The notes under the pieces were generated by a model. It had not been told where the DNA came from. It made no database searches and saw only the letters and a program-made list of their open reading frames with translations. 64,000 nt of DNA, taken from the NCBI RefSeq assembly GCF_001613365.1, contig NZ_BDCF01000002.1, forward strand, positions 372,001-436,000. Direction: 5' to 3'. Source of the stretch: Nocardia xishanensis NBRC 101358 (GTDB lineage: Bacteria; Actinomycetota; Actinomycetes; Mycobacteriales; Mycobacteriaceae). Of the stretch, positions 4,593 to 12,620 are shown piece after piece; within the stretch, counting starts at the first letter, position 1; each line of letters starts with the position of its first letter. A program made the position numbers and the translations under genes.

Positions 4593-5027
4593 TTGTCGAT
4601 ACCGACCGAATCATCTTCCCCGCAATCGAATACGCCTGTCGCCACCGATGTCCGGTCGGTAACGAATGGTGCCGGAATCCTCCCTGCCCCCACAACGCGC
4701 GGCGAAAACGCCGATATCGCCCCGCTCGGTGCACCCGTGCTCGTTCTGGGCGTCATGCTGATCGGCGCCGGGCTCGCCGCATTGCTGAAGGTACGGAGCT
4801 GGTCGAGCGACTACGGCTGGTTGGTCTACGTCGCCTACCTCCTGTACATGAGTCTCGCCGGTTTGTCGAGCGTGTGGGGCTTCCGCTTGACCCGCAACTC
4901 GAAGGTGCCGAACCCACCCGCAATTCGCAACCGGACCTCCTCGGCGAATACCGGTGGGCGATCGCGCTCTCGAACGGCGCCGAGAAAGCGGCGAGATCCC
5001 CGGGCGACGCTAGGGGCCGCGGGCTGA
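4593..5027 (+). CDS. Small two-TM membrane protein, paralogue of the gene at 2670
   Basis: A 144-residue protein starting at TTG (LSIPTESSSPQ), with AAAGAG about eight bases upstream. Upstream codons in frame are Arg/Pro/Ser-rich and look non-coding. Two hydrophobic segments, GAPVLVLGVMLIGAGLAAL and WLVYVAYLLYMSLAGLSSV, align with the two segments of the divergent gene at 2670-3002. The basic C-terminal tail of about 45 residues has no counterpart in the paralogue and may be a read-through extension after a lost stop. Function unknown; a membrane-stress or transporter-accessory role would be a guess. Confidence 0.5.
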   Translation: MSIPTESSSPQSNTPVATDVRSVTNGAGILPAPTTRGENADIAPLGAPVLVLGVMLIGAGLAALLKVRSWSSDYGWLVYVAYLLYMSLAGLSSVWGFRLTRNSKVPNPPAIRNRTSSANTGGRSRSRTAPRKRRDPRATLGAAG

Positions 5028-5174
5028 CTCCGGCATGACCGCCCGTGCTGAATTTGCGGCGGCGGAGAAATTTTCGTTCGCGGGACTGCGCGGTCCGGCA
5101 CACCGAGCGGGAATGTGCGGGCGGGGAGATGCCGGGCACCACCGTCGGTGTCGTTCGGTGATCTCGACGGGTGA

Positions 5175-5681
5175 TCACGATGCCTTGTCGACGGTCCACA
5201 GCTGATGGCCGCCGTTGGGTTCGCACTTCGCGATCCGCGCTTGTTCGTTGGGCACATTCGGGTCGGTCACCCGGGACAGGCACAAGTTCTCGGTGTCGGA
5301 TCGGATCCGACCACCCCCGCCGGAGGGCTCGAATACCCATTTCGGGCTGCTGGGTTTGCATTTCATGAGGGCCGCGAGTTCGGCATCGTTGGCCGACACC
5401 GCCAAGCACGCCGTCTTGCTCGTGATGGGTGCGATAGTGGAGAACCCGGTCCCATCCTTGGCGATCCATCGTTGCTCCAGCTTCTGGTTGCACGGAAGGA
5501 AGCGCAGAATGTTCGATCTCGATCCGGGAAGAGTCAGACACCTGCCATCCGAGCTCTTGATCACGATTTCCTCGTTCGCTGCCGGCCAGTCGGCATGCGC
5601 TGTGCCGCAGGACATTCCGGCTGCGCAGACAATCGCCGCGCCGACCCCCGCTATCGCCACGTGAAACGCCGCACCACGCAC
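5175..5681 (-). CDS. Secreted ricin-type beta-trefoil lectin-like protein
   Basis: A 168-residue exported protein. The signal peptide (hydrophobic VAIAGVGAAIVCAAG) ends at AHA before DWPA. The mature part shows repeated trefoil features: SSDGRCLTLPGS, KLEQRWIAKDGTG, TACLAVSAN, ENLCLSRVTDP, and the terminal HQLWTVDK, with paired cysteines in each lobe (RCL...PCN, ACL...KCK, LCL...KCE). This fits a single RICIN domain for carbohydrate or surface binding. No enzymatic domain is attached. Single gene, convergent with the gene at 4593. Confidence 0.7.
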   Translation of the reverse strand: MRGAAFHVAIAGVGAAIVCAAGMSCGTAHADWPAANEEIVIKSSDGRCLTLPGSRSNILRFLPCNQKLEQRWIAKDGTGFSTIAPITSKTACLAVSANDAELAALMKCKPSSPKWVFEPSGGGGRIRSDTENLCLSRVTDPNVPNEQARIAKCEPNGGHQLWTVDKAS

Positions 5682-5964
5682 ATCGTCTCCCTAGGTCGCT
5701 CCGAACAGTACGAGGCTCGGACCGCCGACGCAGCAGGACTCCTGTCGAAGCCCCTACCCGCCCGGATCCCGTCGCCTTCATTCGCCGCCGATAATTCCTG
5801 ATGCGATGGGTGTTGTCGTGCGCATGCGGCGGCGTGTCCTCGCCCGGCGGTCGTAGTAGGCGTGGTCGACCCGGGCCATGGCTCATCGGCAGTCCATCGC
5901 GACCTCCCGGGGTCGGCGTCGCTGCCGCCTGGTCTAATGGTCGGAACTTGGAGGGGAGGCAACG

Positions 5965-7305
5965 GTGCCGGAGGAAACGCGCGCGGACGCGACGCCGTCG
6001 CGCGCCGTCACCGCGTGGACGCAAGGTCTGCTCTGTGTGGCGATCGTGGCGAGCGGCGTCATCGTCGGCGGCCTGCTGCACGAACCGGATCCCGGCCTGA
6101 CGACCACGCCTACGTCCGCGACCCGCGCAACCACCGAGGCCGAGCCGCCGCAGCCGTCCTTCGTAACCCCGCCGGTAACCTATCCGACGCAGATTCCCGG
6201 CTGCGCCACCGTTGAGCCGCCCGGCGAAGGCGGGTTGATTGGCTTCGCGTTCAGCGGCGAATTCGGTTACGACAACCCGGCGTATCCGTGGTTCTCCGGG
6301 CCCAAAGCCGTCGCGATGTCGACCGCGCTGCGCGAGGCGCTGCCCGATGAAGTGGTCATCGGCTTCGCCCCTGTCGGTGAGTCGCTGTTGTTCCAGCCGA
6401 TCCTCGGGAACCCCGGTGACTCGGCCGAATTCGCGAAGTTCGGCGGTTCCACCGAAGCACGCGCCACACTGCGGCGCGGCGATCTGGCGGGGTCGCTGTC
6501 GATTTCGGTGCGGAAATCCACCGCGCCGATCCCGCCCTGTATCGCCGGGGAGCTCGACGAGCGTCGCCCGCTCGCCGACGGTACGACGGTCGACACACAC
6601 GACACCTGGTCGCAGGTCGACGGGGTGCGCACCCTGTCCCGCACTGCCCGCGCCTACGCACCCGACGGCAGCGTTGTGGTGGCCTCTGCCACCGACGAGC
6701 CGCCCGGGCTCGGTCCCACCGGGATCGTGCCGTTGTCCGTCGACGAACTCGTCGGCCTGGTGAATGCCCCGGGGGCGCGGATCACCGCACCCGTGCCGCC
6801 CGGAACGCCGGACCCGCCCGAAGACTGCCGCCTCGCGACCGCGAATGCCGCCGCGATCGACGAGGCCGAATCGCGCAGGCTGGACGCGGTGCTGGCGCGG
6901 ATCCCCCTCGATGGCCTCACCATGGACCGCCCGCTGGGATCGCTGCGTCCCGGTGCGGACGGCTCCGGCGGAGTGTGCCAGGCGGTTCGGGTCACCGCCG
7001 CGGGCCGACGATCCCGGCTGAGCATCGCGATCGACGCCGGTCGGACCACGCCGGCGACGGAATCCGCTGTGCCGTCGAGCGGACAGCCGGTGACCGCACG
7101 GCAGCTCCCGGACGGAACCATCGTCGAAAGCCGGGAGCTGCGAACGACTCTCGCGGCGAGCTCGGAGCTGACGCGCACGGTCGTCGTGACCCGCTCATCG
7201 GGGTCCGCGGTACAGGTGGTTTCCGCCGCGGAAAGTCCGGCCGAGCCGCTGAGCGTCGCGCAGTTGGAGGCGATCGCGCTGACTCCCGGACTGGAGGTGT
7301 CGTGA
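5965..7305 (+). CDS. Membrane-anchored two-domain protein, unknown function
   Basis: A 446-residue protein with a cytoplasmic N-terminal stretch, one transmembrane helix (GLLCVAIVASGVIVGGLL, about 20-37), a Thr/Pro-rich linker, and two weakly repeated extracellular domains. Each half carries a similar pattern (a C...-containing start, ATLRRGDLAGSLSISV or RRSRLSIAIDAG strands, DGTTV/DGTIVE, then LSVDELVGL or LSVAQLEAI). This resembles actinobacterial anchored domain proteins of unknown role. The GTG start has an excellent GGAGGGGAGG site. The stop overlaps the next gene's start by one base (TGATG), so the two are translationally coupled. Confidence 0.7.
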   Translation: MPEETRADATPSRAVTAWTQGLLCVAIVASGVIVGGLLHEPDPGLTTTPTSATRATTEAEPPQPSFVTPPVTYPTQIPGCATVEPPGEGGLIGFAFSGEFGYDNPAYPWFSGPKAVAMSTALREALPDEVVIGFAPVGESLLFQPILGNPGDSAEFAKFGGSTEARATLRRGDLAGSLSISVRKSTAPIPPCIAGELDERRPLADGTTVDTHDTWSQVDGVRTLSRTARAYAPDGSVVVASATDEPPGLGPTGIVPLSVDELVGLVNAPGARITAPVPPGTPDPPEDCRLATANAAAIDEAESRRLDAVLARIPLDGLTMDRPLGSLRPGADGSGGVCQAVRVTAAGRRSRLSIAIDAGRTTPATESAVPSSGQPVTARQLPDGTIVESRELRTTLAASSELTRTVVVTRSSGSAVQVVSAAESPAEPLSVAQLEAIALTPGLEVS

Positions 7306-10354: not shown

Positions 10355-10374
10355 CTAGACGAGTAAGTCCGAAG
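10355..10374 (+). repeat. Left terminal inverted repeat
   Basis: Perfect 20-bp partner of the right repeat at 11167-11186. It lies five bases from the stop codon of the first transposase remnant, as expected for an IS terminus. Confidence 0.85.
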
Positions 10375-10379
10375 TCCGG

Positions 10380-10445
10380 TCAGTGATCGTAGGAGATGCG
10401 TGACCGGATGCGGGGTTGGCCGGTGGTGCGGTTGTGGCAGATGGC
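10380..10445 (-). pseudogene. IS982-like transposase, C-terminal fragment (left copy)
   Basis: The minus strand reads AICHNRTTGQPRIRSRISYDH and stops at 10380-10382. It is a diverged version of the C-terminus found in the right copy (AIWHNHTIGAPVTRSLIAYDH). Only about 21 codons survive, ending close to the 3' end of the passenger gene. Confidence 0.65.
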
Positions 10446-10466
10446 GCTATCTCCGCTGCTGAATTG

Positions 10467-10880
10467 CTACGACGTGATCAGTCGCGGCCGGGTATCTGGG
10501 CGTCCGTAGACCAGGATGCGCGGCAGCACTTCCCGCAAGCGTGCCACGTCCGCTGCTGGCGCATGCAGCAACGCCTCGACAACGGGATCGGTCAGGCCGA
10601 GATTATCCAGCGACTCGGGATCCAAGGTCACCCGAAGCACGTCGCCGGTCAGCTCCACGTCGCGTACGCAGCCATAGGCAGTGCCCTGATCGGGCGTGAC
10701 AAGGCAATGTGTGTCCATGCCCAGCGACACATCCTGTTCGTCGGGCTCGTCGAAGTCGCACATGAACAACAAGGAGAACCCCTCTTCGTCATTCGACTCC
10801 GCCACGCCCGCCATCATGCAGTCGTCTACATCTGGATCATCGAGTCCGCACGCAACCAGCGCCGTGAACCTGTACGCCAT
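10467..10880 (-). CDS. Imm10-family immunity protein (orphan)
   Basis: A 137-residue acidic cytosolic protein starting MAYRFTALVAC. It carries the Imm10 pattern: an EQDVSLGMDTHCLVT strand-turn, a central AYGCVRDVELTGDVLRVTLD, and a Leu-rich C-terminal helix. Imm10 proteins are predicted to neutralise polymorphic toxins delivered by contact-dependent or type VII systems. No toxin gene lies beside it; both neighbours are transposase fragments inside the inverted-repeat element. It may protect against toxins of competing strains or be a captured passenger. The family call is by sequence pattern and is fairly confident; the toxin partner is unknown. The reading frame is intact, so it is probably still expressed. 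Confidence 0.65.
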   Translation of the reverse strand: MAYRFTALVACGLDDPDVDDCMMAGVAESNDEEGFSLLFMCDFDEPDEQDVSLGMDTHCLVTPDQGTAYGCVRDVELTGDVLRVTLDPESLDNLGLTDPVVEALLHAPAADVARLREVLPRILVYGRPDTRPRLITS

Positions 10881-10918
10881 GCACGTGTTCTAGCATGCTC
10901 ATCTGATCCGAGTGTTGG

Positions 10919-11120
10919 TCAGTGGTCGTAGGCAATCAGTGACCGGGTGACCGGTGCGCCGATCGTATGGTTGTGCCAGATCGCGGCGGCCATCGCGAGT
11001 ATGCGCTGGGCGACGCGGATCGCGACGCCCTCGACGCTGCGGCCGCCGTGGTCTTCAAGGTCGAGTTGCATCAATCTTCACGTACAGTGCGGTCAGGAGG
11101 GCGTCCAGATCGTTCGTCAC
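10919..11120 (-). pseudogene. IS982-like transposase with internal deletion (right copy)
   Basis: The 5' part reads MTNDLDALLTALYVKIDAT from a GTG at 11118-11120, the typical N-terminus of this transposase group. It breaks at once into the C-terminal part (QLDLEDHGGRSVEGVA..., then AMAAAIWHNHTIGAPV and SLIAYDH) in another frame. The entire DDE catalytic core is deleted. The family assignment to IS982 rests on recall of its N- and C-terminal patterns. Confidence 0.7.
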
Positions 11121-11166
11121 ACAATGATCTTCGACGCCCTCCGCCCACGTCCGGGCATCACCGGGC

Positions 11167-11186
11167 CTTCGGACTTACTCGTCTAG
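11167..11186 (-). repeat. Right terminal inverted repeat
   Basis: Perfect inverted copy of the 20-bp left repeat at 10355-10374, located about 50 bp upstream of the transposase stub's start, as expected for the other IS terminus. Confidence 0.85.
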
Positions 11187-11249
11187 TTGGTTGGGAAGGA
11201 ACGGCGCGGCGGGGCCACCCGGGGTGCTGGAGAACAGCACCAGCCCTTC

Positions 11250-11500
11250 CACCCAGCGCACGCCCGGGGGCGGCAGGAGTCGTGACCGGTGGTGCCGACG
11301 ACTTCGAAGTAGTCCAGCGTCAGGATGCGGGCGTGCGGGGCGTGTGCACGGATCCCCGCGATGGTCGCGGTCACCCGGGTGGCGGCGACGTCGATGGCGT
11401 CGGTCGTGCCGTCGGTGTCACCGGTGATCATGGCGTTCCGGCCCGGTGTGGCGGCGGGATCGGTTGTGAGACAGGTGAATACGGACTCGGCCAGAGCACC
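11250..11500 (-). pseudogene. Possible SGNH/GDSL hydrolase fragment
   Basis: A minus-strand segment reads ESVFTCLTTDPAATPG, then ATRVTATIAGIRAHAPHARI and LTLDYFEVVG. The last two resemble the central helix-strand of actinobacterial SGNH lipases (R...V...IRA.AP.ARI...DY). Neither the GDS nucleophile block nor the catalytic DxxH block is present. The frame ends inside the right inverted repeat of the mini element, and its upstream part overlaps the end of corA in another frame. Probably a gene truncated by the element's insertion; weak call. Confidence 0.35.
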
Positions 11501-11546
11501 AGGAAAGCCCCCGCCGGGTCCCCGTACGAACGGATTCGCCGTCGGC

Positions 11547-12620
11547 TCAAAGCCATTCGATGCGGCGGAAGATGACATAGAGGGTGCCGCAGAGGGTCGC
11601 CATGAGTGCGAGAACGGCCGGATAGCCCCAGGCTTGTCGCAGTTCGGCCATGTGCTCGAAGTTCATGCCGTAGATCCCGGCGATCATGGTCGGAACGGCG
11701 AGGATCGCGACCCAGGCCGAGATCTTGCGCACGTCGGTGTTCTGCTGGACGGCGGTTTTCGCCAACGCGGCGCCGATGAGGGCGCTCAGGGCGTCGTCGA
11801 AGTCGTTGATGCGTTCGGCGACAGTGGTGTGGTGATCGGCGACGTCCCGCAGATAACGGCGAACTTCCTTGGGCAGCGGTGTTTCTGGTTCGCTGAGCTG
11901 GTGGAGCGGGTCGGCGAGCGGCTTGACCGCGCGCCGGAGTTCGACGATTTCGCGTTTGAGCTGGTAGATGGGTTCGATGGCGATCCGGCGGCGCGGGGTG
12001 AAGATCTCCTCTTCCATAGCGTCGACATCGAGTTCGACCGCTCGGGTGAGCTCCAGGTACGAGTCGACGACGAAATCGGCGATCGCGTGCAGCACAGCGC
12101 CGGGGCCCAGCTGGAGTCGCTGCGGGTGGGCTTCGAGGTCGCGCCGTACGCCGGCGAGGCCGGAGTGCTCGCCGTGGCGGACCGCGACGACGAAGTCGGG
12201 TGCGGTGAAAATGAGGATTTCGCCGGTCTGCACGATTTCGCTGACGCTGTGCAGTTCGTGCTCGACGTAGGCGACGGTGCGCATCACCGTCACGAGGATG
12301 TCGTCGTAGCGTTCCAGTTTCGGCCGTTGATGCGCTTTCACCGCGTCTTCGACCGCCAGTGAATGCAGCCCGAAGGTCTGCGCGATGTCGCCCATCTGCG
12401 TCTCATCGGGTTCGTGCAGACCGACCCATACGAACCCGGTACCGCGCGCGCGGACCTCGGCCAGCGCCGCGGCGTGGGTGAATTTGCCCGGGAGCCGCTG
12501 CCCGTCGACGTACACCGCGCAATCGACGATCGCCCGCGCGGTGGGGACCGGGACCTTCGGCACCACCGGAACCTGCCGCTCGGACCGCCGGAACGACGGG
12601 AGATGCGGAATATGCGACAC
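11547..12620 (-). CDS. corA: CorA-type magnesium/cobalt transporter
   Basis: A 357-residue protein of the CorA family, full length. A large N-terminal cytoplasmic alpha/beta domain (FVWVGLHEPDE, then DILVTVMRTV) is followed by a long stalk helix and two C-terminal transmembrane helices. The selectivity motif YGMNF sits between the helices (IAGIYGMNFEHM), and the last helix ends with the basic tail RRIEWL. It forms a homopentameric inner-membrane channel for Mg2+ uptake. Monocistronic; the mini element ends about 360 bp downstream. Confidence 0.92.
   Translation of the reverse strand: MSHIPHLPSFRRSERQVPVVPKVPVPTARAIVDCAVYVDGQRLPGKFTHAAALAEVRARGTGFVWVGLHEPDETQMGDIAQTFGLHSLAVEDAVKAHQRPKLERYDDILVTVMRTVAYVEHELHSVSEIVQTGEILIFTAPDFVVAVRHGEHSGLAGVRRDLEAHPQRLQLGPGAVLHAIADFVVDSYLELTRAVELDVDAMEEEIFTPRRRIAIEPIYQLKREIVELRRAVKPLADPLHQLSEPETPLPKEVRRYLRDVADHHTTVAERINDFDDALSALIGAALAKTAVQQNTDVRKISAWVAILAVPTMIAGIYGMNFEHMAELRQAWGYPAVLALMATLCGTLYVIFRRIEWL

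Follow-up and report, generated by a model that had tools for sequence, protein, structure and literature searches.

The window, the whole stretch of 64,000 nucleotides of Nocardia xishanensis DNA analysed here, carries at 10355-11186 a small element bounded by inverted repeats (Table 1). Read in the minus direction, the arms enclose an N-terminal transposase stub, a transposase C-terminus (residues 258-306), a gene of 137 codons and a second C-terminus (residues 285-306). The arms match over 23 nt at 96% identity, with 20 nt exact, the part that a sequence-only reading of the locus had noticed. Shuffling the 3-kb region 300 times with dinucleotides kept, and requiring 100 nt or more between the arms, never gave an exact repeat of 20 nt; 17 nt was the maximum. 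Transposase residues are numbered after an intact sibling, P0001 from the genome G105, which matches the IS982 transposase profile (NF033520, 185 bits, cut-off 130). All three transposase pieces of the window align to P0001, residues 27-257 are missing between the stub and the longer C-terminus, and plain IS982 copies of about 984 bp have ends like the window arms. The same reading had proposed an IS982 origin, a lost transposase core, and repeats that belong with the two C-termini and the stub, and each of these proposals holds. The window element is confirmed as a non-autonomous IS982 element. The window's own genome contains neither a second copy of the element nor another IS982 transposase at E <= 1e-20.

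Table 1. Features of the element and its insertion site, in window positions.
Feature	Position	Strand	Remark
Left terminal inverted repeat	10355..10377	+	20 nt exact; end shared with plain IS982 copies
CTAG, left	10355..10358	.	Read as target-site duplication, or as outermost 4 nt of the end
Outer IS982 end with transposase C-terminus remnant, residues 285-306	10383..10448	-	
Captured unit	10464..10895	-	Common to the IS-free copy of G065; limits almost equal in G130 and G020
Intact passenger gene, 137 aa, Imm10 family	10467..10880	-	PF15588
Putative -10 box TAGAAC (TGC-TAGAAC)	10887..10892	-	6 nt before the ATG
Degenerate inner IS982 end	10896..10921	.	Terminal GGTCAGTGG as in the outer end; outer bases decayed
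Transposase C-terminus, residues 258-306	10922..11068	-	92% to P0001
Transposase N-terminal stub, residues 4-26	11070..11138	-	78% to P0001
Right terminal inverted repeat	11164..11186	-	Outermost CTAG is 11183-11186
5' part of the interrupted gene	11187..11578	-	Resumes on the left side, down to about 10305

The gene interrupted by the element is SGNH-hydrolase-like by eye only, and Pfam gives no match for the ORF at 11183-11578. Relatives in the genus carry this gene uninterrupted: at least six of eight fetched relatives align across the joined flanks of the window with the element absent, and the insertion site reads CGAG in five and CCAG in one of six relatives. The window element has CTAG at both sides. 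Of 85 plain-length IS982 copies, 81 have CTAG at the left end and 84 at the right, and sequence further out is not repeated above chance. A single CTAG is common to the neighbours in all four head-to-tail IS982 pairs (L129, L080, L147, L212), which is why we read CTAG as the duplicated target. The evidence favours this reading; alternatively, CTAG could be part of the IS982 end.

The imm10 gene, its copies and its putative partners

The intact gene matches the Imm10 profile (PF15588, E 7.8e-12, 45.8 bits against a cut-off of 28.6), and NCBIfam returns no meaningful match. The gene is a member of the Imm10 family by profile, as had been suspected from its sequence pattern, and a role as an antidote is predicted. 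The profile exceeds its cut-off in seven of 148 genomes, four of which carry the gene on IS982. One scan of viral contigs yielded no relative of the protein, and a single-sequence structure model (mean pLDDT 52) was left unused.

A DNA search across 150 genomes of the genus gives long matches in G116 (92%), G101 (92%) and G082 (89%); the same ends recur around imm10 outside the window genome, as had been anticipated. G101 holds the whole composite, with 1522 bp between the outer ends; imm10 there lies at the C-terminal side of a transposase that is almost full-length but frame-shifted. G116 and G082 retain imm10 together with a single outer end and pieces of a damaged transposase. The second C-terminus of the window element (residues 285-306) belongs to the outer end of this composite unit, of which G101 has the fuller form. 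Compared all against all, the 4-kb flanks of the four imm10 units have nothing in common at E <= 1e-5; the unit occupies unrelated sites in the window genome and in three further species of the genus. A passenger gene lies here between two IS ends and appears to have moved with them as a unit.

Homologous imm10 genes are present without IS982 in G065, G130 and G020. Alignment to these IS-free copies (blastn) places the limits of the shared stretch at 10464-10895, 10465-10895 and 10476-10895 of the window. As similarity to the IS-free homologues stops at the gene, the captured stretch would consist of the gene and about 15 nt upstream. The region of the -10 box reads GTTCTAGCA on the plus strand in six of the seven homologues and GTTTTAGCA in G130. 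Allowing the one base change of G130, the TGC-TAGAAC box is found in all seven, with a spacing to the ATG that is 1 nt longer in G082 and G020. This box is a putative leaderless-type promoter of imm10 itself.

All four IS-borne copies of imm10 are open and all four accompanying transposases are broken. Pairwise dN/dS among these imm10 copies is 0.17-0.24. In 4000 runs of a neutral simulation, 0.3% were as conservative as the pair of G116 and the window, and none was as conservative as two other imm10 pairs. These values indicate that imm10 stayed under purifying selection as the transposase of each of the four copies died. Divergence at synonymous sites of imm10 (dS 0.09-0.29) lies below that of rpoB (0.29-0.49) in all six pairs of IS982 carriers, whereas it lies above rpoB (0.55-1.76 vs. 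0.13-0.48) in the 15 pairs with an IS-free copy; related genomes do not yield independent pairs, and the comparison covers 382 shared rpoB codons and leaves out another rpoB-like locus in G101 whose frame was misread. Since rpoB is a conserved gene, the lower dS of imm10 argues for transfer between species and points to horizontal spread of the IS-borne gene. Together with the four unrelated sites, this supports the mobility that the sequence-only reading had attributed to the element.

No toxin gene is found among eight neighbours of the three IS-free imm10 copies or in five Streptomyces plasmid imm10 regions, as annotated, and a recognised toxin neighbour is absent for all seven Imm10 copies of the genus. 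The profile of the Pput_2613 deaminase (PF14427), the toxin family already known to pair with Imm10, matches none of 148 genomes, but controls are equally silent, so this result is no evidence either way. An Imm10-fold protein acting alone at another task, such as regulation, defence against phages or plasmids, or housekeeping, would suit the lack of toxin neighbours in the seven genus copies and five plasmid copies viewed, as well as the length of 137 aa and the promoter box that are constant in all seven copies. We regard such a solo function as unlikely, given that Imm10 is reported with a deaminase toxin and in heterogeneous polyimmunity loci (PMC3482391), that one plasmid Imm10 copy has an SMI1/KNR4-type neighbour, that sister IS982 elements bear Imm32 and barstar, and that the Imm10 protein has no match in an anti-phage library. 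Toxin resistance is the predicted contribution of the window imm10 gene.

The plasmid stretch L231 (736-1906, Streptomyces venezuelae) has an SMI1/KNR4 gene adjoining an Imm10 gene near a linear plasmid end, and is perhaps a small polyimmunity locus.

IS982 passengers across the genus

IS982 transposase stretches of the genus number 32, and 20 of these have two ends within 4 kb. We left out L072 (the second 'end' has three mismatches, is far off and resembles a chance match), L148 (same locus as L071) and an 819-bp stretch of L080 (which includes imm32 but has a doubtful end). Extra genes are enclosed by 14 of the 17 copies with both ends located, and three copies have plain length; the window element and an element of G140 are additional to the 17. 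Outside the genus, seven of 95 two-ended IS982 copies are longer than plain, and none of six passenger proteins from five extended copies is an immunity protein. The stretch L167 (1183-3540, Streptacidiphilus neutrinimicus) is longer than plain because a reverse-transcriptase gene, by eye probably a group II intron, lies between an IS982 end and the transposase.

Twelve passenger types are present in the genus (Table 2), leaving out L108, which has one end only. Four types match Pfam immunity families, with imm10 in four genomes, imm32 in two, barstar-a in three and barstar-b in one, amounting to ten copies in seven genomes. The odds of four immunity types among 12 range from 3e-11 at a background rate of 0.05% to 2e-3 at 5%, and those of three among 11, without the window finding, from 2e-8 to 1.5e-2; these background rates are assumed rather than measured, and the immunity category was chosen after the first case. 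Capture of immunity genes by IS982 recurs in the genus, so that "transporter IS" elements of this family appear to have taken up orphan immunity genes more than once.

Table 2. Passenger types of IS982 elements in the genus.
Passenger	Genomes	Profile evidence
Imm10	Four genomes	PF15588
Imm32	G026, G116	G026: 65 bits, cut-off 27
Barstar-a	G116, G140, G055	G116: 66.6 bits, cut-off 23.4
Barstar-b	G116	24.5 bits, marginal, just over cut-off
Oxidoreductase + TetR	G105	
DUF4440/SnoaL + HxlR/MarR-like gene	G143	
Mycothiol-enzyme-like protein	G025	
Rhodanese + MarR	G011, also G010, G072	
182-residue protein	G086 (L078)	No family
106-residue protein	G116, also G072	No family
62-residue protein	G115, G125, G119	No family
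187-residue protein	G018	No family

The remaining eight types fall outside known immunity families, which is what would be expected if IS982 picked up any gene caught between two ends and imm10 were a load without benefit. Such neutral hitch-hiking seems distinctly unlikely, as imm10 shows purifying selection alongside a dead transposase in four of four copies, and as four immunity types among 12 are improbable at assumed (unmeasured) background rates up to 5%.

The element of G140 has 713 bp, IS982 ends and an intact barstar gene, and its transposase N-terminus runs directly into the C-terminus. Like the window element, it has lost the transposase core, here around a different antidote family. 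The barstar-a genes of G116 and G140 have a dS of 0.10, compared to 0.55 for rpoB. In the Imm32 element of G026, the transposase frame is open over 297 codons; hence immunity-bearing IS982 elements may still be autonomous. G116 has five IS982 passenger elements, four of them with immunity families (imm10, imm32, barstar-a and barstar-b), and its barstar-a element is broken by two nested IS that are IS3- and IS30-like by eye.

Further arrangements were seen around IS982 ends. In L080 of G116, an imm32 element (4960-5778) and the 106-residue element (5775-7198) are arranged head to head and have one CTAG in common; this second imm32 copy (ORF 5281-5673, minus strand) is 95.8% identical over 801 nt to the G026 element. 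A 72-bp piece with two facing IS982-like ends in L081 of G112 (4596-4667) is MITE-like. Elements of about 1375 bp in L102, L103 and L107 (G115, G125, G119) share a conserved 62-codon gene. Rhodanese and MarR genes adjoin an IS982 end in L104 (4825-7562), L284 and L285 (G011, G010, G072) and appear to form another mobile passenger set. The 182-residue passenger of G086 (L078) resembled SUKH/SMI1 by eye; this assignment was rejected, as the protein has no Pfam, NCBIfam or PADLOC match and is not similar to the one annotated SMI1/KNR4 protein compared.

Origin of the element and relation to known systems

The window element is likely a decayed, non-autonomous derivative of a transporter IS of the IS982 family, in which imm10 was kept as an antidote against an incoming toxin. 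Alternatively, the gene could simply sit between leftovers of two unrelated insertions of IS982, with outer repeats defining no single unit. This view would explain the two C-termini and the weakened inner end, which show that more than one IS982 end contributed. It is hardly credible when the same composite with the same junctions recurs at four unrelated sites, each in a different species, and when in G101 both outer ends flank the composite in complete form. Under a transporter IS origin, the ancestral unit would have comprised an outer IS982 end, imm10 with its own short promoter, and a complete copy of IS982 whose inner end was weak. With another IS982 end next to the gene, the transposase could skip its own inner end and move the gene as well. 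The IS982 transposase would have recognised the outer ends, moved the whole unit and inserted it at CTAG, duplicating these four bases. Decay of the inner end (10896-10921) might have fixed the composite as one unit. Later loss of the transposase core would have left the 832 bp seen today, mobile only if an IS982 transposase is supplied in trans; its own genome has none. Imm10 would neutralise a toxin delivered by competing bacteria and may have been retained for that reason.

More tentatively, IS982 in the genus could act as a scattered store of immunity with one gene per element, built up by capture, spread between species and loss of the transposase, with the antidote kept by toxin selection. 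We consider this broader view possible, if somewhat doubtful. The 106-, 182- and 62-residue passengers are perhaps part of such a store. The usual vehicles of orphan immunity genes are taken to be large islands or toxin loci. Should single antidotes travel on IS of kilobase size, defence against rivals would move in the smallest mobile unit known, and an antidote could be fixed by loss of the transposase. Such elements could be found by searching for IS ends around short genes. New immunity families might then be sought among the passengers without a family, and the antidotes would point to toxins in use among actinomycetes. Very small mobile pieces of DNA may thus spread resistance to the toxins of rivals.

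Passenger-bearing IS and orphan-immunity islands are each known separately, and we found no report of IS982 with an orphan immunity passenger among the open-licence papers searched. Toxin-antitoxin passengers of Tn3 transposons are alike in placing toxin-neutralising genes inside a transposon. Tn3, however, moves toxin and antitoxin as a pair, whereas here the immunity gene travels alone. Transporter IS (tIS) are IS derivatives with passenger genes and, as described in PMC9330008, share with our elements one transposase, two IS ends and an unrelated passenger inside. In contrast to the tIS described there, the elements here belong to the IS982 family and bear orphan immunity passengers, and the window copy is without a transposase core. 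Mobile insertion cassettes of the MIC231 type, named in PMC6542083, are likewise non-autonomous, combine IS ends with a passenger and need a transposase in trans. Unlike those cassettes, the window element keeps transposase fragments at both junctions, so that its origin from an IS982 composite is still visible. The acquired interbacterial defence islands of Bacteroidales, AID and rAID (PMC12247911), are similar in that a mobile structure holds orphan immunity genes unaccompanied by toxins. The rAID type is an array beside a tyrosine recombinase, whereas the window element has a single gene between IS982 ends, with neither a tyrosine recombinase nor an immunity array, and is therefore not a rAID island. 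In these actinomycetes, single immunity genes instead reside on separate IS of the DDE type.
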